Assembly: GCA_023954195.1 (NCBI GenBank) | Contig: JAMLIK010000001.1 | Location: forward strand, 868,001-932,000 | Source of the DNA: Xanthobacteraceae bacterium | GTDB taxonomy: Bacteria > Pseudomonadota > Alphaproteobacteria > Rhizobiales > Xanthobacteraceae | Reading direction: 5' to 3' | Length of the DNA stretch: 64,000 nt | In this document: one piece after another, positions 43,559 through 61,371 of the stretch | How the letters are laid out: each line of letters begins with the position of its first letter | How positions within the stretch are numbered: the first letter of the stretch is position 1 | Notes under the pieces: generated by a model | Told to the model about the DNA's origin: nothing | Seen by the model: only the letters and a program-made list of their open reading frames with translations | The model's database searches: none | Program-made: the position numbers and the translations under genes

Positions 43559-44218
43559 ATGATTTTGAAAGACATTTTGGCCCGCATCGAGCAGCGGCTA
43601 CGGGCAACCGGCCTCTCGGCTGATGCCGCATCGAAAATGGCGGATAAGCCGGACGCCATTCGCAACATGCGCCGCGCCGTTAAGGCCGGGCGCGGCGGCG
43701 TCAATACGGGGACGGTCGAGGCGCTGGCAGGCGTGCTGGGGACCACCGCTGTCTGGCTCCTTAAAGCCGAAGGCGAGGAAACTTCCGCTGATTGGCGCTC
43801 GGAGGACGTCGCCCATTCAATAGAGAAGCCCCGCGCCCGAACCGTCCGCGTCAAAGGCTATGTCGGTGCCGGCGACGCGGCGCATTTCTACAAGGTTTCA
43901 GATGAGGCTTTCGAGGAAGTAGCTGCCCCGGACGGCGCGACCGACCAGACAGTAGCCGTCGAGATTCGCGGAACGAGCTGGGGCCGCTTTATGAATACCT
44001 GGCTGGTATTTTATGACGATGTTCGTTCGCCCATCACAGAGGACTTGCTGGGCCAGCCTTGCGTGATCGGGCTGGCGGATGACCGAATTCTCATCAAGGT
44101 CATCAAGCGGGATGGCAACGGCGGCTACCGGCTGGTTTCAAACAATCCGAACGAACCGGATATTGATCACGCCGAGATCGAATGGGCCGCCAAGGTCACG
44201 TCAATGAGGCCGAGATAG
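43559..44218 (+). CDS. CI-like S24 repressor
   Basis: 219 aa, cytoplasmic, keeps lytic genes off. N-terminal HTH DNA-binding domain (about 1-70: ILARIEQRLRATGLSADAASKMADKP, then NTGTVEALAGVLGTTAVWLLKAEGEE). A linker contains the Ala-Gly-type cleavage site in KGYVGAGDAAHF. C-terminal LexA-like S24 peptidase has the Ser in RGTSWGRFMN and the Lys in ILIKVIKRDGNGG. This supports RecA-induced self-cleavage. It heads a plus-strand operon ending at the terminator at 45777. O3 overlaps its start codon, so it is probably autoregulated. Confidence 0.9.
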   Translation: MILKDILARIEQRLRATGLSADAASKMADKPDAIRNMRRAVKAGRGGVNTGTVEALAGVLGTTAVWLLKAEGEETSADWRSEDVAHSIEKPRARTVRVKGYVGAGDAAHFYKVSDEAFEEVAAPDGATDQTVAVEIRGTSWGRFMNTWLVFYDDVRSPITEDLLGQPCVIGLADDRILIKVIKRDGNGGYRLVSNNPNEPDIDHAEIEWAAKVTSMRPR

Positions 44219-49987: not shown

Positions 49988-51220
49988 ATGGCTAAGATCG
50001 TTAGAACCAAATCCAAGGCGCTTGGCGGCATCACGCCGGAAGAAAAGGCTCGCATGGACGAACATGCGAAGCTCTGGATTTCGCGCGCGATGCGCACCGA
50101 TCCGATTGAGCCGGACAAGATCATCCCAGCAATTGAGGGGTTGTACCAGATCGCCGGTCTGAAGAAGCCGCGCGTTGTGATCGTGCCTTCGCCGTTGGTG
50201 ATGGCCTACGCTTATGGTGCCTCTGCTGCGATCTGGCATGCGCGGAAGAATCCGGGGAAAACCGACGCCGCCACCTACGCCGCCACCTACGCCGCCACCG
50301 ACGCCGCCACCTACGCCGCCACCTACGCCGCCACCTACGCCGCCACCTACGCCGCCACCGACGCCGCCACCTACGCCGCCACCTACGCCGCCACCGACGC
50401 CGCCACCTACGCCGCCACCTACGCCGCCACCGCCGCCGCCACCGACGCCGCCACCGACGCCGCCACCTACGCCGCCACCTACGCCGCCACCCGCGCCGCC
50501 ACCGACGACGCCACCGACGCTAAATTGGCCGCTCAGGCATGTTTCGACATGGCTGGACCGCTCGGCATCGAATGCGCCAAGCGCTGGTGGAACGTTTATC
50601 ACGGCGGCAACATGTGGGCCGGATACGATTGCTATATGACCTCTTGTCGCGACATTCTTGGCCTCGAACTCCGAGAGCACGCCGGATATGCATTTTGGGA
50701 GCAGGCTGCAATCCACGGGGGATTCCGCGTTATGCACGAGGAATTTTGCCTCGTGTCAGATTTTCCCGAAATCATCCGCAAAGATGAGGAAAATCGCCCT
50801 CACTGCGAAACGGGGCCTTCGCATCGCTGGCGTGACGGATGGTCGCTTTACCACTGGCATGGTGTCCGCATCCCCGCAGAATGGATCGAGGATCGCAAGA
50901 GCCTGACGCCTACAATCGCGCTTGGTCAGCAAAACATGGAGTTGCGCCGCGCCGCTTGTGAAATTCTCGGTTGGGCAAGCATCCTCAGCGATCTCAACGC
51001 AAAGACGATCGATCACGATGACGATCCTCAAATCGGTGATCTGGTCGAAGTGACGCTTCCCGACCTGCCGCAGCCAGCGAAGTTCCTCCGCGTCCGATGC
51101 GGCACAGGTCGCGAGTTCGCCATCGGCATCCCGCCACACATCAACAAGGCTCTCGACGCTCAGGCGTGGATTATCGGCCTTGATCCGAAAGATTTTCAAC
51201 GCCCCGAAGTGCGGGCTTAG
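49988..51220 (+). CDS. DUF6745 protein with an internal AATx repeat array
   Basis: 410 aa. The N-terminal part (KARMDEHAKLWISRAMRTDPIEPDKIIPAIEGLYQIAGL) and C-terminal part (HCETGPSHRWRDGWSLYHWHGVRIPAEWIE, and RRAACEILGWASILSDLNAK) match DUF6745. Between them, residues about 94-177 are 21 tandem AAT-Tyr/Asp units encoded by 12-bp repeats (50267-50518). The array replaces a normal linker and is likely variable in length by slippage. Function unknown. A longer frame on the opposite strand is an artefact of the repeat. Confidence 0.75.
   Translation: MAKIVRTKSKALGGITPEEKARMDEHAKLWISRAMRTDPIEPDKIIPAIEGLYQIAGLKKPRVVIVPSPLVMAYAYGASAAIWHARKNPGKTDAATYAATYAATDAATYAATYAATYAATYAATDAATYAATYAATDAATYAATYAATAAATDAATDAATYAATYAATRAATDDATDAKLAAQACFDMAGPLGIECAKRWWNVYHGGNMWAGYDCYMTSCRDILGLELREHAGYAFWEQAAIHGGFRVMHEEFCLVSDFPEIIRKDEENRPHCETGPSHRWRDGWSLYHWHGVRIPAEWIEDRKSLTPTIALGQQNMELRRAACEILGWASILSDLNAKTIDHDDDPQIGDLVEVTLPDLPQPAKFLRVRCGTGREFAIGIPPHINKALDAQAWIIGLDPKDFQRPEVRA
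50267..50518 (+). repeat. 21-unit 12-bp tandem repeat in the DUF6745 gene
   Basis: Units GCCGCCACCTAC or GCCGCCACCGAC (AATY/AATD), with single variants (GCC for TAC; CGC). Of 21 units, 20 begin GCCGCCACC. Because the unit is a multiple of three, slippage adds or removes four residues without frameshift. Confidence 0.95.
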
Positions 51221-51693: not shown

Positions 51694-52845
51694 GTGAATG
51701 GACGCGCTCTCTACATCGAAATCGACGAATACTGTCGAGCCTGGTTGCGAAACCTCATCGCCGCAGATCTCATCTGCCCCGGCGATGTCGTTGGAGACAT
51801 CCTTGACGTCCGACCGCGCGACCTCGATCGGTACAATCAGGTCCACGCCTTCGCCGGCATTGGCATCTGGTCAGGATCATTGCGAGACGCAGGAATCCGA
51901 GACAACGACTACGTCTGGACCGGATCGTGCCCATGCCAACCTTTCAGCGCGGCAGGCCAAAGAGGCGGGTTTGCTGACGAGCGGCACCTATGGCCCGCCT
52001 TCTTCCATCTCATCAAGGAGTGCCGCCCTCCAGTCGTTCTTGGCGAGCAAGTTGCAAGCCCGGATGGGCTTCAGTGGTTCGATCTTGTTTCGTCTGACCT
52101 GGAAGGAGCGGACTACGCCATCGGGGCGGCCGATCTGTGCGCTGCGGGCATCGCGGTGGCCGCAGGCGAAACGGAAGTCGGGCAACCGACTCTCGAATGG
52201 ATACGAAGGGCCGTTCAGTCTTGTCCTGATCCCTTTCTCGCCGCCGAGCTACGTGATTATGCCGAATGGTTTGACCGAGAGGCTGGTATCGGCCCTCCGC
52301 ACATCCGCCAACGGCTGTGCTGGATGGCCTACGCCGACCAAGGGCAACGCGGACGGTTCCCAGATCGCGAAGGATGCGAGCCCGACCGGGCGCCGGCCGG
52401 ACGGCAGCAAGGCGATGGTGAGCCTGAACCAGGTCGCGCAGTTGGCGGGATGGCCGACAGCGATGGCCGGTACGCCCGCGCGGAACGGCAACAACGAGGC
52501 TGGCAATACGGACAGCAGCCGCAAGACGGTATCGCTGGCGCATGGAGCCATCCCGATAGCCTCATGGGCAATACCGACGACGCGGGATCACAAGGACGGG
52601 GCGAGCGTCGGAACGGCGCCGATCAACGGCTTGCTGGGCCGACAAGTCTGGCTGGCTGGACCCGCGCCGACTGGATCATCTGCACAGACGGAAAAGCCAG
52701 GCCAATTGAACCCGGCACATTCCCGTTGGCTCATGGACAGTCCAACCGCGTGGGACGACTGCGCGCCTACGGCAACGCGATGCACCGGGCGAAAATCACG
52801 CAATTCATCCTCGCGGCGCAAGAAGCAATCGGAGCCCCGTCATGA
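51694..52845 (+). CDS. C5 cytosine DNA methyltransferase (Dcm-like)
   Basis: 383 aa. Motif [16 protein letters not shown], catalytic motif [21 protein letters not shown] with the Cys in PCQ, motif VI-like GEQVA, motif [15 protein letters not shown] and the C-terminal [18 protein letters not shown]. All core motifs are present in one open frame, so it should be active. GTG 51694 has GGAGG upstream. A second frame (51698-52855) overlaps it almost completely. Stop overlaps the next gene as ATGA. Probably protects phage DNA from restriction. Confidence 0.85.
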
Positions 52846-57408: not shown

Positions 57409-57594
57409 ATGTCACGCCGCCCTGCCACCGTTATACAAGCAGACATTGCCCGCGCGATCCGTGCGGCAAAGCAGACTGGCGCGGGCTGCGTTGAGATTCT
57501 GCCGGACGGGTCGATCAGGATCAGTCTTTCCCCGACATCCACAGAAACCCACAGGGCCAGGAAGGTTGAAGATCGCGAGGAGATCATCCTTTGA
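57409..57594 (+). CDS. Small integrase-linked protein
   Basis: 61 aa. MSRRPATVIQADIARAIRAA, then GCVEILPDGSIRISLSP. I recognise this type of small protein as lying directly upstream of tyrosine integrases in Rhizobiales prophages, sometimes coupled to them. It may be excision-related. Its stop codon overlaps the 8-bp target duplication of the IS element (TTGATGAT 57591-57598). Confidence 0.7.
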   Translation: MSRRPATVIQADIARAIRAAKQTGAGCVEILPDGSIRISLSPTSTETHRARKVEDREEIIL

Positions 57595-57598
57595 TGAT
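57591..57598 (+). repeat. Left target-site duplication of the IS1595 element
   Basis: TTGATGAT, repeated exactly at 60268-60275 on the far side of the element. Confidence 0.9.
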
Positions 57599-57670
57599 CG
57601 GAATAAGTAGTTATGGGCTTGACCATGAATTCGGACCCGTATAAGGTTCATGGTATAGAAAGGACGCGCC

Positions 57671-58546
57671 ATGAACCTGCTCACGATATTCTCCAAGTTT
57701 CCGGATCAAGAAGCCTGCATTGAGTATCTTGAGAGGGTGCGTTGGGCTGATGACGCGCACTGCCCGCATTGCGGGTCCGATTCCGTTGCTCGCAAGGAAG
57801 ATGCTGGCCGTGTCGGGCGTTGGAACTGTCATGCTTGCAATTCCAGCTTCAACGTCTTGTCCGGGACAATTTTCGAGAAGACCCGCATCCCTTTGCAGAA
57901 GTGGTTCCTAGCCATTGGCTTAATCGTGAACGCGAAAAAGAGCCTTTCCAGCTTCCAACTCGCACGCGATCTGGACATGAACCAAAAGTCCGCTTGGTAC
58001 ATGCAGCAGCGTATCCGTGCTGCGATGCTCACCAAAGAGGGGGAGCTTTTGCAGGGGATCATTGAAGCCGATGAAACCTATGTCGGCGGAAAGCCGCGCA
58101 AGGGAAATCGTCGCGATGACGACACGCCCGGGCCTCGTGGGCGCGCGACCAAGAAGGTGCCTGTTGTCGGTGCAATCGAGCGCGGCGGGCGTGTTGTCGC
58201 GCGCGTTGCCGACGACCTGACGGGTAAAGGCCTCCTTCGTTTTCTGCGTAGTGTTGCCGATCCGAACGGCTCAATCCTCATGACCGATGAACTGTCGGCG
58301 TACAATGAGGCAGGAAAGGTCTTCCGCCGTTCGGTTATCAATCATCGCCGCGCCTATGCGGAGGGTCAGACGCACACCAATTCAATCGAGGGCTTTTGGT
58401 CGCTTTTGAAGCGTGCTTGGTATGGCTCGCACCACCACTATTCCAAGAGCTACATGCCCCTGTTCGTGGGCGAAGCGTGCTGGAAATACAATCAGCGCCG
58501 GAGCGCAGACCCCTTTGCCGAGTTCATGAAGGACTGCTTTGCATGA
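57671..58546 (+). CDS. ISXO2/IS1595-like transposase
   Basis: 291 aa. N-terminal zinc ribbon (HCPHCGSDSVARKEDAGRVGRWNCHAC). DDE-type catalytic domain: EADETYVGGKPRKGNRR (first D/E), ILMTDELSAYNEAG (second D), and THTNSIEGFWSLLKRAWYG (Asn/Glu). GKPRKGNR is typical for IS1595 family. AAGGA precedes ATG 57671. Full length and with no frameshift, so probably active. Confidence 0.93.
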   Translation: MNLLTIFSKFPDQEACIEYLERVRWADDAHCPHCGSDSVARKEDAGRVGRWNCHACNSSFNVLSGTIFEKTRIPLQKWFLAIGLIVNAKKSLSSFQLARDLDMNQKSAWYMQQRIRAAMLTKEGELLQGIIEADETYVGGKPRKGNRRDDDTPGPRGRATKKVPVVGAIERGGRVVARVADDLTGKGLLRFLRSVADPNGSILMTDELSAYNEAGKVFRRSVINHRRAYAEGQTHTNSIEGFWSLLKRAWYGSHHHYSKSYMPLFVGEACWKYNQRRSADPFAEFMKDCFA

Positions 58547-60237
58547 CAAAGTGGGTCAATCAACTTCTATACGGCGACTGCCTTTCTCTCATGCGCGAAA
58601 TGCCAATGGGCTACGTGGATTTGGTCTACTTGGACCCTCCCTTCAACTCCAACCGCGACTACGCGGCGATCTATGAGGACGAGACCGGTCGCCCTCTCCC
58701 TGAGCAAATCGAGGCATTCAACGATCTGTGGGAGCTTTCGCCGGAGAGGGTCGAAGCGATCAAGATGATGCCGGTGCTAATGCGGGAAGCGGGGGTTCCT
58801 GACGAGGTTGCTGAACTCTGGCGTCATTGGATGCAGGCGCTTCGAAATGCTCAGCCTAGGCTACTTTCGTATCTCTCCTACATGACGGAACGGCTTTTGC
58901 CGCTCCGGTCGATCGTAAAGCCGACCGGTTCGATTTACCTTCATTGTGATCCCACCGCCTCGCACTACATCAAGGCAATGATGGACAGCATCTTTGGCCA
59001 TCAAAACTTCCGAAACGAGATTATCTGGAAGCGCACCTTTGCACATGGCGGCGCGACTCGTTGGGGAGACATTCACGATGTAATCCTATTTTACACGCGG
59101 TCTGACAAATACACTTGGAATAAGGTTCTTCAGGCGCACGACCCAAACTACATAGATACCAAATACCGATTTGTTGATGAGCGAGGACGCTATCGCCTCG
59201 TGGTTTTGACCGGCCCAGGGAAGACGAAGGGCGCGTCTGGTCAGGCGTGGCGCGGCTACAACCCCTCGGATGGAGGCCGACATTGGGCGGTGCCAAAGCG
59301 CGCGATTGACGCGTTGCGCGAGGAAGGCGTCGAGATTCCGCCCGATCTGCACGATCAGCTGGAATTGCTTTACCAGCACAGCTTTATCCGTTTTCCTGAG
59401 CGGGGGCGCGGGGGCGGCCCCGGCGTTCCTGAGTTCAAGCTGTACCTCGAAAAGGGCCAGCCGATTCAGGACATCATTACGGACATTCCACCAATCAACT
59501 CACAGGCGAAGGAACGGCTCGGCTACCCGACGCAGAAGCCGGTTGCGCTTCTTGAGCGCATCATCAAAGCCTCGACCAATGAGGGGGATCGCGTACTAGA
59601 CCCCTTCTGTGGGTGCGCGACTACCATTGAGGCTGCACACGAACTCAAGCGGGAATGGATCGGGATCGACATTGCGATTCACGCCATTAAGCGCGTTGCG
59701 AAGGTGCGGCTTGAAGATCGTCTCGGACTAAGGGAAGGGGTTGATTTCGTCGTCAAAGGCATCCCCGGGTCGCTCGAAGGCGCGAAAGACCTTTGGCAAT
59801 CCGACAAACACCAGTTCCAGAAATGGGCAATTGAACAGGTGGATGGCTTCGTTACAACCAAGAAGACAGACGATGGTGGGATTGACGGGCGCATCTATTT
59901 CTCTCTGCCCGGACAGAGTGAACTTGAGAGCATGGTGATTGAGGTCAAGGGCGGGAAGAACGTTAGTAAGGAGGTGGTCAGGAGCCTGAGGGGAGTACTG
60001 GATCGCGACCAAGCCAAAATGGCCGGGCTCATCATCATGGAAGATATGGGCAGCCGAAAGACAAAGAACTTCCTGAGCGAGTTCGCAGACCTCGGGATGC
60101 TCGACGTTAATGGCGTCAAATATCCGAGGATGCAGCTTCTAACAGTCAGCGACATTCTCGCGGGACAAAGGTTCCTTACGCCCACAGTCGCCAAGGCTCG
60201 CATGATGTCCCAGCCATCGCTTCCATTCGGGCGCTGA
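58543..60237 (+). CDS. DNA methyltransferase with C-terminal Mrr-like nuclease domain (IS passenger)
   Basis: 564 aa. Catalytic DPPF in VYLDPPFNSNRDY at about residue 32. SAM-binding motif I DPFCGCATTIEAA near 352, after the catalytic motif, so a beta-class amino-MTase (N6A or N4C). C-terminal 420-510 has DDGGIDGRIYF and MVIEVKGGKN, a D-x(n)-ExK Mrr-like core. It starts inside the transposase stop (ATGA). It could be a one-polypeptide restriction-modification or methylation-targeting enzyme. Two functions in one protein are inferred from domains, not shown. Confidence 0.83.
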   Translation: MTKWVNQLLYGDCLSLMREMPMGYVDLVYLDPPFNSNRDYAAIYEDETGRPLPEQIEAFNDLWELSPERVEAIKMMPVLMREAGVPDEVAELWRHWMQALRNAQPRLLSYLSYMTERLLPLRSIVKPTGSIYLHCDPTASHYIKAMMDSIFGHQNFRNEIIWKRTFAHGGATRWGDIHDVILFYTRSDKYTWNKVLQAHDPNYIDTKYRFVDERGRYRLVVLTGPGKTKGASGQAWRGYNPSDGGRHWAVPKRAIDALREEGVEIPPDLHDQLELLYQHSFIRFPERGRGGGPGVPEFKLYLEKGQPIQDIITDIPPINSQAKERLGYPTQKPVALLERIIKASTNEGDRVLDPFCGCATTIEAAHELKREWIGIDIAIHAIKRVAKVRLEDRLGLREGVDFVVKGIPGSLEGAKDLWQSDKHQFQKWAIEQVDGFVTTKKTDDGGIDGRIYFSLPGQSELESMVIEVKGGKNVSKEVVRSLRGVLDRDQAKMAGLIIMEDMGSRKTKNFLSEFADLGMLDVNGVKYPRMQLLTVSDILAGQRFLTPTVAKARMMSQPSLPFGR

Positions 60238-60245
60238 ATGATGAT

Positions 60246-60267
60246 AAGCCCATAACTACTTATTCCG
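60246..60267 (-). repeat. Right terminal inverted repeat of the IS1595 element
   Basis: Perfect 22-bp inverse match to 57599-57620. Confidence 0.95.
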
Positions 60268-60275
60268 TTGATGAT
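60268..60275 (+). repeat. Right target-site duplication
   Basis: TTGATGAT, same as 57591-57598. The duplicated bases form the start context of the integrase gene, so the original junction read TTTGATGATCGACATG. Confidence 0.9.
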
Positions 60276-61371
60276 CGACATGCCGAATGAGCGTCCGAGA
60301 TACCTTCAAAAGCAGATTACCCGTCACGGCAAGGTGGCGTGGTACGTCAGGGTGGGACGCGGCAAGAAGACACGGATTTACGGCAAATACGGATCCGACG
60401 AGTTCAAAGACAACTATGACGCCGCAATCTCTGGTCAGCCCCGCGCAAAGAAGGGGGCGAAGCCCGACACACTTGAATGGCTGATCAATCTGCATCGGAA
60501 GTCGGAATATTGGAGCGGCCTCGCAGCATCCACGCGAGTGCAGCGCGAGCGGATCTATCGACAAGTACTCAAGACGGCCGGAAACAAACCTGTCGTCTAC
60601 ATCGACAAACAAGCAATTTTGAAGGGCAAGGAACGACGCAAGGGCACGCCGTCTGAGGCTCGCCATTTCATCGACGCCATGCGATCGCTGTTCAGGTGGG
60701 CGCTGGATTCCGATCTCGTGACGGCCGACCCGACCGCTGGCATCAAGACGGTGAAGCCGGACAAGGCCGGCATCAAGCCGTGGACCGATGAGGATATCGC
60801 GAAGTTTGAAAAACGATGGCCTCGCGGAACTCGCGAGCGCGTTATGTTCGACATATTCGTCTATACCGGCTTGCGGATCGGGGATGCGGCCGTGCTCGGC
60901 AAACAGCACGTCAAAAATGGCCTCATCGCCATTGACACCGAAAAGACCGGCATGAGGGTGACCATTCCGATGCTGGCTCCGCTCGCAGCCACACTAAAGG
61001 CCGGACCGACTGGCGATCTGACTTACATCGCGACCGAGGCTGGGCGCGGGATGCTCAAAACGAGCGTCGGCAACGCCTTCAGAAGTGCCGCCCGCGCGGC
61101 CGGCGTGAACAAGTCACCACACGGCATCCGGAAGGCCGCAGCGACCCACGCTGCCGACAACGGCGCGACCGAGGCTGAGTTGGAAGCGATTTTCGGCTGG
61201 CGTGGCGGCGCTATGGCCTCTCACTACACCCGCGAGGCGAATCGAAAGAAGCTTGCCAAGGGTGCAATCTCGAAGTTGGCGCGGGGAAAAAACAGAACTT
61301 CCATGCTACCACCTGACGATGTGGTGGTAGCATCAAGCGAAAAATGTAAGCAAAGTCAGAGGCGAAAATGA
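60271..61371 (+). CDS. Tyrosine recombinase (prophage integrase)
   Basis: About 366 aa. Core-binding N-terminal part to about residue 170; catalytic domain: Arg in YTGLRIGDAA, HGIRKAAATHA (His-x-x-Arg), FGWRGGAMASHYTRE (Tyr nucleophile). Start ATG 60271; the IS lies directly upstream and no good ribosome site remains. The stop codon (TGA 61369-61371) lies inside the attR core, and arm-type motifs at 61304-61332 are inside the coding sequence. It is the last gene of the plus early operon. Confidence 0.92.
   Translation: MIDMPNERPRYLQKQITRHGKVAWYVRVGRGKKTRIYGKYGSDEFKDNYDAAISGQPRAKKGAKPDTLEWLINLHRKSEYWSGLAASTRVQRERIYRQVLKTAGNKPVVYIDKQAILKGKERRKGTPSEARHFIDAMRSLFRWALDSDLVTADPTAGIKTVKPDKAGIKPWTDEDIAKFEKRWPRGTRERVMFDIFVYTGLRIGDAAVLGKQHVKNGLIAIDTEKTGMRVTIPMLAPLAATLKAGPTGDLTYIATEAGRGMLKTSVGNAFRSAARAAGVNKSPHGIRKAAATHAADNGATEAELEAIFGWRGGAMASHYTREANRKKLAKGAISKLARGKNRTSMLPPDDVVVASSEKCKQSQRRK
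61304..61332. promoter_or_regulatory. Arm-type inverted motif pair near attR
   Basis: TGCTACCACC (61304-61313) and GGTGGTAGCA (61323-61332) are exact inverse copies and match the pair near attL. They lie in the integrase C-terminal coding region (SMLPPDDVVVASS). Confidence 0.75.

Follow-up and report, generated by a model that had tools for sequence, protein, structure and literature searches.

The window, a stretch of 64,000 nucleotides from contig JAMLIK010000001.1 of a Xanthobacteraceae bacterium, contains a complete insertion element of 2,669 bp in which the gene for an IS1595-family transposase is followed by a passenger gene encoding a methyltransferase-nuclease fusion (Table 1). The initial annotation had given 58543-60237 as the extent of the whole element; these coordinates are correct for the passenger gene, whereas the element runs from 57599 to 60267. 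The perfect terminal repeats and the ATGA coupling of the two genes described there were both recovered, the 22-bp ends being identical and flanked by an 8-bp duplication, the usual length for the IS1595 family. The combination of an exact 8-bp duplication with a 22-bp terminal repeat was tested against chance at 27 other loci with 20 shuffles each, the window standing outside this test; L004, L032 and L036 matched at 20-22 of 22 positions and L142 at 16 of 22, none of them giving a match in their own shuffles, and at a threshold of 14 of 22 a match arose in six of the 540 shuffles. Matches at L015 (14/22) and L044 (15/22) in the repeat scan were taken as chance.

Table 1. Features of the element and of its insertion site (positions in the window)
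Feature	Position	Strand	Remarks
61-aa phage ORF (phrog_29970), left of insertion	57409-57594	+	Homologues in L150 and L153
Target-site duplication, left copy	57591-57598	.	TTGATGAT, 8 bp, direct sequence
Left terminal inverted repeat	57599-57620	+	CGGAATAAGTAGTTATGGGCTT; matches right end 22/22; element start 57599
IS1595-family transposase, 291 aa	57671-58546	+	Zinc ribbon PF12760 and DDE PF12762
Stop-start overlap of transposase and passenger, ATGA	58543-58546	+	Same ATGA at other loci (see text)
Passenger, 564-aa methyltransferase-nuclease fusion	58543-60237	+	Intact ORF, inside element ends
Methylase N-terminal core, aa 1-150	58543-58992	+	Motif IV DPPF, aa 31-34 (58633-58644)
Target recognition region, aa 151-330	58993-59532	+	Mosaic; little conserved among IS-borne relatives
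Methylase C-terminal core, aa 331-397	59533-59733	+	Motif I DPFCGC, aa 353-358 (59599-59616)
Mrr-like PD-(D/E)xK nuclease domain, aa 398-550	59734-60192	+	Pfam, alignment, model
D448	59884-59886	+	Nuclease residue
E467	59941-59943	+	Nuclease residue
K469	59947-59949	+	Nuclease residue
Right terminal inverted repeat	60246-60267	-	22 bp, perfect; element end 60267
Target-site duplication, right copy	60268-60275	.	TTGATGAT, 8 bp
Prophage tyrosine integrase ORF, right of insertion	60268-61371	+	In-frame ATG at 60271

The element lies inside a prophage that includes a repressor at 43559 (phrog_4), a Holliday-junction resolvase, a ParB-like protein and, directly after the element, the integrase. In L150 and L153, which are homologous uninterrupted sites other than the empty site of the same strain, a homologue of the 61-aa ORF overlaps the integrase start directly (integrases 48-56% identical), so the element sits at the ORF-integrase junction; the target duplication preserves the stop of the 61-aa ORF and a start for the integrase. 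The neighbourhood of the phage integrase is a possible hotspot for passenger homologues. The same prophage has a phage DNA methyltransferase at 51694-52845 (phrog_363; C5 type by eye), and a 410-aa ORF at 49988-51220 of the window carries a long Ala-Thr-Tyr/Asp repeat tract that is open in other frames too, as Pro-Thr and Gly-Val repeats. In Streptomyces phage RedBear (L165) and Mycobacterium phage Amgine (L166), homologues of the passenger are likewise located close to the integrase.

Regarding the encoded proteins, the transposase matches PF12762 (E 2e-33) and the NCBIfam IS1595 equivalog domain NF033547 (180.7 bits, cut-off 75), both above cut-off, which bears out the earlier family assignment. 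In the passenger, PF01555 (N6_N4_Mtase, E 1e-41, above cut-off), PF04471 (Mrr_cat, aa 433-502, 24.2 bits, cut-off 21) and the motifs agree with the prediction of a beta-class DPPF methylase and an Mrr-like ExK domain in one protein. The beta class follows from the order DPPF, recognition region, DPFCGC; matches to the methylase half include CcrM, M.BceJIV, RsrI and Type III Mod proteins, and the methylase motifs, D448 and K469 are all kept in an alignment of five sequences. For a model of the isolated C-terminal domain (pLDDT 80), the only Foldseek matches in the PDB below 1e-3 were AspBHI and MspJI (E 2e-4 and 4e-4), a weak structural match (TMq 0.56-0.58, rmsd 9-10) to modification-dependent enzymes that, unlike the window protein, have no methylase. 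The full-length model has low confidence across most of the recognition region, which is therefore given no structural reading. The residues D448-E467-K469 and the alpha-beta fold of the C-terminal model are those of a PD-(D/E)xK nuclease, and methylase and nuclease share a single chain as in Type IIC/IIG enzymes, but instead of the order usual there (N-terminal nuclease, gamma-class NPPY methylase) the protein has the beta order and a C-terminal nuclease.

The pair of transposase and passenger was found with related ends at eight further loci, four of them with matching 8-bp duplications: L004 (23-bp repeats, TTTTGGAT) and, with both ends found, L032 (ATTTTTTT), L036 (TTTCACCA) and L034 (AAACATTA). 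L035 has both ends without a matching duplication, and is 99.95% identical to L034 over 2,174 bp; the two share one genome (G593), and both genes are broken in each copy. L162 has both ends with flanks that do not match (ATTTGTTT / TTTGGGAA), L006 has the left end only, a frameshifted transposase and a contig ending within the open passenger frame, and L164 has the left end only, its contig ending inside the passenger. The same ATGA overlap is present in L004, L006, L032, L036, L066, L118, L162 and L164. The L162 element also holds a third ORF of 111 aa (L162:3971-4306) touching the passenger end, and its left end lies a few bases from an apparent tRNA 3' end (by eye). Copies at different sites point to transposition, and the mobility proposed in the initial annotation is borne out by the duplications elsewhere, the two copies in G593 and a transposase-less cassette, L142; the case it had named against itself, homologues always outside IS ends, does not apply, since several homologues lie inside ends. 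Judged by its sequence, the locus is a bounded, once-mobile element with a transposase and an ATGA-coupled fusion of a predicted beta-class methylase and PD-(D/E)xK nuclease.

The window's genome carries a single copy of this transposase, besides two distant IS1595 transposases at other places (30-33% identity), and a single passenger at E<=1e-60. Of the 385 genomes in the class sample, four including its own had the transposase at E<=1e-90, and in all four the passenger adjoined one copy or more; an extra, related transposase copy in this sample, L033, has no passenger match. The passenger was found at E<=1e-80 in at least 12 of the 385 genomes, a lower bound because the search, which scored at most three candidates per genome, missed the G613 copy. 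It lies beside this transposase in three of these 12 (G000, G573 and G593), G593 also having a passenger-type gene beside a different IS1595 transposase (L066). In the other nine an IS1595 transposase is adjacent in none; the closest approach is at L043, where a distant one lies about 1.8 kb off. The order sample had the transposase at E<=1e-60 in three of 239 genomes including its own, the other two being distant (43% identity) and without such a passenger in their flanks by eye, and the phylum-wide sample at E<=1e-80 in one of 398, its own only. Plasmids contained no transposase match at E 1e-60, and viral contigs gave 0 matches to the terminal-repeat pattern, relatives with slightly different ends being found there by protein. 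The transposases of the window, L004, L032, L036 and the solo L033 form one 100/100 clade among the 38 rows of a tree from which L006, L034, L162 and L164 were left out.

Regarding passengers separated from the transposase, L142 (viral contig) has an intact passenger, 74% identical to that of the window, without a transposase; its left end CGGAACTAGTAGTTATG abuts the start codon, its right end is CGGAATTAGTAATTATGGGCTT, and the duplication AAATGGAG is present on both sides. L160 retains a 38-residue transposase remnant and the right end beside an open passenger frame, L156 the right end on a contig beginning just upstream of the gene, and in L144 (viral contig) a related transposase is represented by its first 36 residues alone. 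For many homologues, located on plasmids, chromosomes and viral contigs, the flanks examined contain no IS1595 transposase, and ends sought at L143, L005, L063, L064, L007, L062 and L015 were in no case convincing. Since the passengers of L142, L006 and L160 outlast an intact transposase, this gene can be retained for a benefit of its own. The passenger tree requires four changes in IS carriage (three forced), or six (four forced) when relics are counted, and the transposases form one clade; IS carriage may thus have had a single origin, with later release and loss, or passengers may have been exchanged.

Investigation of other IS1595 transposases revealed PF12762 in 25 of 114 class genomes, with 55 matches; the 40 regions examined, without three own copies and 12 partial matches, gave 33 full-length rows, of which two are the same gene in overlapping regions and four are from G322. 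Under a lenient rule a same-strand ORF stands at the transposase end in 14 of the 33 rows, an ATGA overlap is present in five (L100, L110, L117, L118 and L129), and among the downstream ORFs scanned methylases were recognised in two, L118 (N6_N4; SPPY by eye) and L129 (D12). These two transposases (L118:1303-3116, L129:2564-4314) are ATGA-coupled to their methylases, and a nuclease domain was found in neither. An IS1595 transposase of G593 (L066:3095-5505) is ATGA-coupled to a beta-class methylase with a C-terminal HNH domain, of which the viral contigs contain no relatives. In the window's own genome, L037:1505-5412 (G000:C3:336000-350000) has an IS1595 transposase overlapping by 22 bp a 978-aa MmeI-type gene with five MmeI Pfam domains, and L037:7505-12552 a second IS1595 transposase with a 167-aa downstream ORF, adjacent to an Eco57I-like enzyme of 1063 aa that is divergent. 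Elsewhere the ORF following an IS1595 transposase is Bro-N (L100) or RhuM (L145), both by Pfam, or KilA-N-like (by eye) at L102-L105, four copies in one genome. Taken together, the survey, L066 and the MmeI-type gene of the own genome place several unrelated DNA methylases behind IS1595 transposases. Ends were looked for at the methylase-carrying loci L066, L037A, L037B, L118 and L129 and not found, so these are only suggested as elements; among such loci ends were found for the Mrr group only, and the transposases of L118, L129, L066 and L037 belong to clades other than that group.

Regarding the nuclease active site, all 36 Mrr-type rows compared keep D448 and K469, and position 467 is E in 11, S in 24 and Q in one, the canonical E of ExK being limited to one clade; a family nuclease lacking all catalytic residues, which the initial annotation had named as the finding that would speak against it, is thus not what the rows contain. 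The rows include the partial proteins L016, L041 and L061 and leave out L065, L066, L069, L008 and L009 (HNH-like C-termini), the nuclease-less second ORF of L007, and L164, which ends before the motif. SxK is found in sister lineages, including the IS-borne L036 and L162. On the helix that follows the K strand, residue 481 is D or E in 24 of the 25 rows without E467 and in four of the 11 ExK rows (Fisher p 0.0003, uncorrected for kinship, the ExK rows being close kin), and this retention of an acid on the next helix suggests that the active site has been relocated where E467 was lost. SxK with a helix acid occurs in Cfr10I/NgoMIV. Catalytic residues recruited from elsewhere are described for the restriction enzymes EcoRII and BspD6I (PMC4081073). 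The nuclease domain is evidently under purifying selection, with pN of 0.13 against pS of 0.82 in L004/L143 and 0.16 against 0.76 in window/L142, most dN/dS values being undefined because pS is near saturation. Mrr_cat is above the Pfam cut-off in the window and L142 and below it in L004, L006, L032, L036 and L143, and PF22722 ("inactive restriction endonuclease") is above cut-off in L005 and below it in the window protein.

Such scores for an inactive nuclease, the SxK form of the wider family, the annotation of phage relatives simply as methylases, and the nuclease-less methylases of L118 (N6_N4) and L129 (D12), which are also ATGA-coupled to other IS1595 transposases, would agree with a passenger that only marks DNA, its methylase being active in anti-restriction or in epigenetic marking on behalf of a mobile element and its Mrr-like domain being DNA-binding or a vestigial nuclease. 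This reading is nevertheless rather unlikely in view of the invariant D448 and K469, the complete ExK of the window clade, the acidic residue 481 of the other rows and the purifying selection on the nuclease domain. It is further weakened by L066 (Pfam) and by L065 and L069 (by eye), where a methylase of this type carries an HNH domain in place of Mrr, which is what an importance of DNA cleavage would predict. A Type IV enzyme that cuts at the methyl mark it sets itself was judged unlikely, as this would be suicidal in a fusion with a methylase.

Co-divergence of the two genes was tested with six pairs (window, L004, L032, L036, L162 and L164), using rounded identities and an incomplete C-terminus for L164. 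Transposase identity followed that of the methylase/nuclease core (rho 0.92; 2 of 720 permutations as high), and for the recognition region rho was 0.05 (240 of 720 as high). L162 and L164 are 86% identical in the transposase, 91% in the core and 39% in the recognition region, and window and L142 share 56-96% in core bins and 30% at aa 241-300. The window and the transposon-free Shinella enzyme L005 are 80-93% identical per 30-residue bin in the recognition region and 23-76% in other bins; there pS is 0.85 and pN 0.10, so the shared recognition region appears to be old and kept. L004 and L143 show no swap, their match of 85-96% continuing through the recognition region. These comparisons establish exchange of the predicted recognition domain among passenger relatives, and the DNA sequence recognised has probably changed between related elements.

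Within a clade the ends stay alike while the recognition domain changes; a passenger role limited to marking the element's own ends was rejected for this reason. The same difference counts against the proposal that the passenger, by methylating or cutting DNA, controls or promotes the transposition of the element that carries it, which would account for the translational coupling and the co-divergence with the transposase but is quite improbable, because the passenger persists without the transposase (L142, L160 and standalone copies), the L033 transposase exists without the passenger, and unrelated passengers are found coupled to other transposases of the IS1595 family. A mere adjacency of genes, or repeats arisen by chance, without any mobile unit, for which the single copy in the window's genome might speak, is refuted by the 22-bp perfect repeats with their 8-bp duplication, the same architecture elsewhere with its own duplications and the uninterrupted homologous ORF-integrase pairs in related phage regions, and retains practically no credibility.

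The locus is therefore best read, with fair though incomplete confidence, as an IS1595 tIS that spreads, as its passenger, a Type IIC-like restriction-modification enzyme made of one chain and unusual in its domain order. The initial annotation is confirmed on the anatomy of the locus and borne out for the most part in its interpretation. Mobility and long-term pairing of transposase and passenger are strongly supported by the sequence comparisons, with six elements as the basis for co-divergence, and restriction activity of the passenger is likely. The methylase half would methylate adenine at a motif set by the recognition domain, and the Mrr-like half would cut DNA without the methylase's mark. 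Coupling to the transposase may keep expression low, so that the enzyme would methylate before it is able to cut and a naive host would survive arrival of the element. The element and its prophage or plasmid would benefit by being retained, since cells losing them would be restricted, and further by the exclusion of competing phages; a swap of the recognition domain might let the element compete where another specificity is resident.

Regarding known systems, the IS1595 family was reportedly defined by Siguier 2009, and tISCpe8 is said to carry a lincomycin resistance passenger. That passengers occur in this family, as the initial annotation had stated, is documented by the concept of the transporter IS (tIS) and its IS1595-type examples (PMC3129680, PMC5704250). 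The window element resembles IS1595 tIS such as tISCpe8 in its transposase domains and in a passenger within one pair of ends, but differs from known tIS, in a comparison outside the passenger list of Siguier 2009, by a methylase-nuclease fusion that co-diverges with the transposase. Restriction-modification genes of PluTI and of Rhizobium leguminosarum VF39SM are reportedly linked to the movement of IS or mobile elements. PaeR7I travelled together with neighbouring IS copies, and IS repeats flank several restriction-modification complexes (PMC3031569). The window gene is like the PaeR7I, PluTI and VF39SM systems in this tie to IS movement; unlike PaeR7I, it lies inside a single IS and overlaps the transposase gene. 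L142 is, like the mobile insertion cassettes (MIC) described in PMC3129680, a gene between IS ends without a transposase, but has IS1595-type ends, a methylase-nuclease cargo and a start codon right behind the left end.

Like the Type IIC/IIG enzymes (MmeI, Eco57I; BtgZI), the passenger is one chain in which a methylase and a PD-(D/E)xK nuclease share the recognition domain. Most of these enzymes have an N-terminal nuclease and a gamma-class methylase, and BtgZI an alpha-class methylase and a C-terminal QxK nuclease (PMC4081073), whereas in the window enzyme a beta-class methylase comes first and an ExK/SxK Mrr-like nuclease last, a layout absent from those in the accessible parts of this Type II review. 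The "DNA methylase" of Streptomyces and Mycobacterium phages, including RedBear and Amgine, is the same protein with both its domains, matched in 28 records at E<=1e-40 and with an identity of 36-42% for the 20 matches listed, the RedBear and Amgine copies differing from the window in being SxK-form phage genes near an integrase with no transposase annotated. A literature search of titles and abstract beginnings, excluding Siguier 2009 and most subscription journals, found no report of an IS1595 methylase-nuclease passenger, and the combination is not reported in the available portions of PMC5704250, PMC3129680, PMC4081073, PMC3031569, PMC12561309, PMC7986276, PMC3942029, PMC8101967, PMC9296519, PMC7285500, PMC12707154, PMC6361761 and PMC7371123.

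A wider proposal, put forward tentatively and with more doubt than confidence, is that this IS1595 lineage has made one-gene restriction-modification part of its life cycle. Transposase and core would form one selfish unit over deep divergence, with the recognition domain swapped like a cassette, the active site rewired between ExK and SxK-plus-helix-acid, and the enzyme released as transposase-less cassettes into phages and plasmids. Restriction-modification genes move, often by a vehicle that is unclear; in the present case two overlapping genes between defined ends are both vehicle and cargo, and they occur in complete, decayed, transposase-less and standalone stages. The pair would allow direct study of whether a transposon or prophage is stabilised by restriction-modification, of the safe establishment of a single-chain enzyme in a naive cell and of the swapping of specificities. 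If the proposal is true, the transposon would act on prophages as an addiction element and would also give rise to new restriction-modification enzymes of the single-chain kind.
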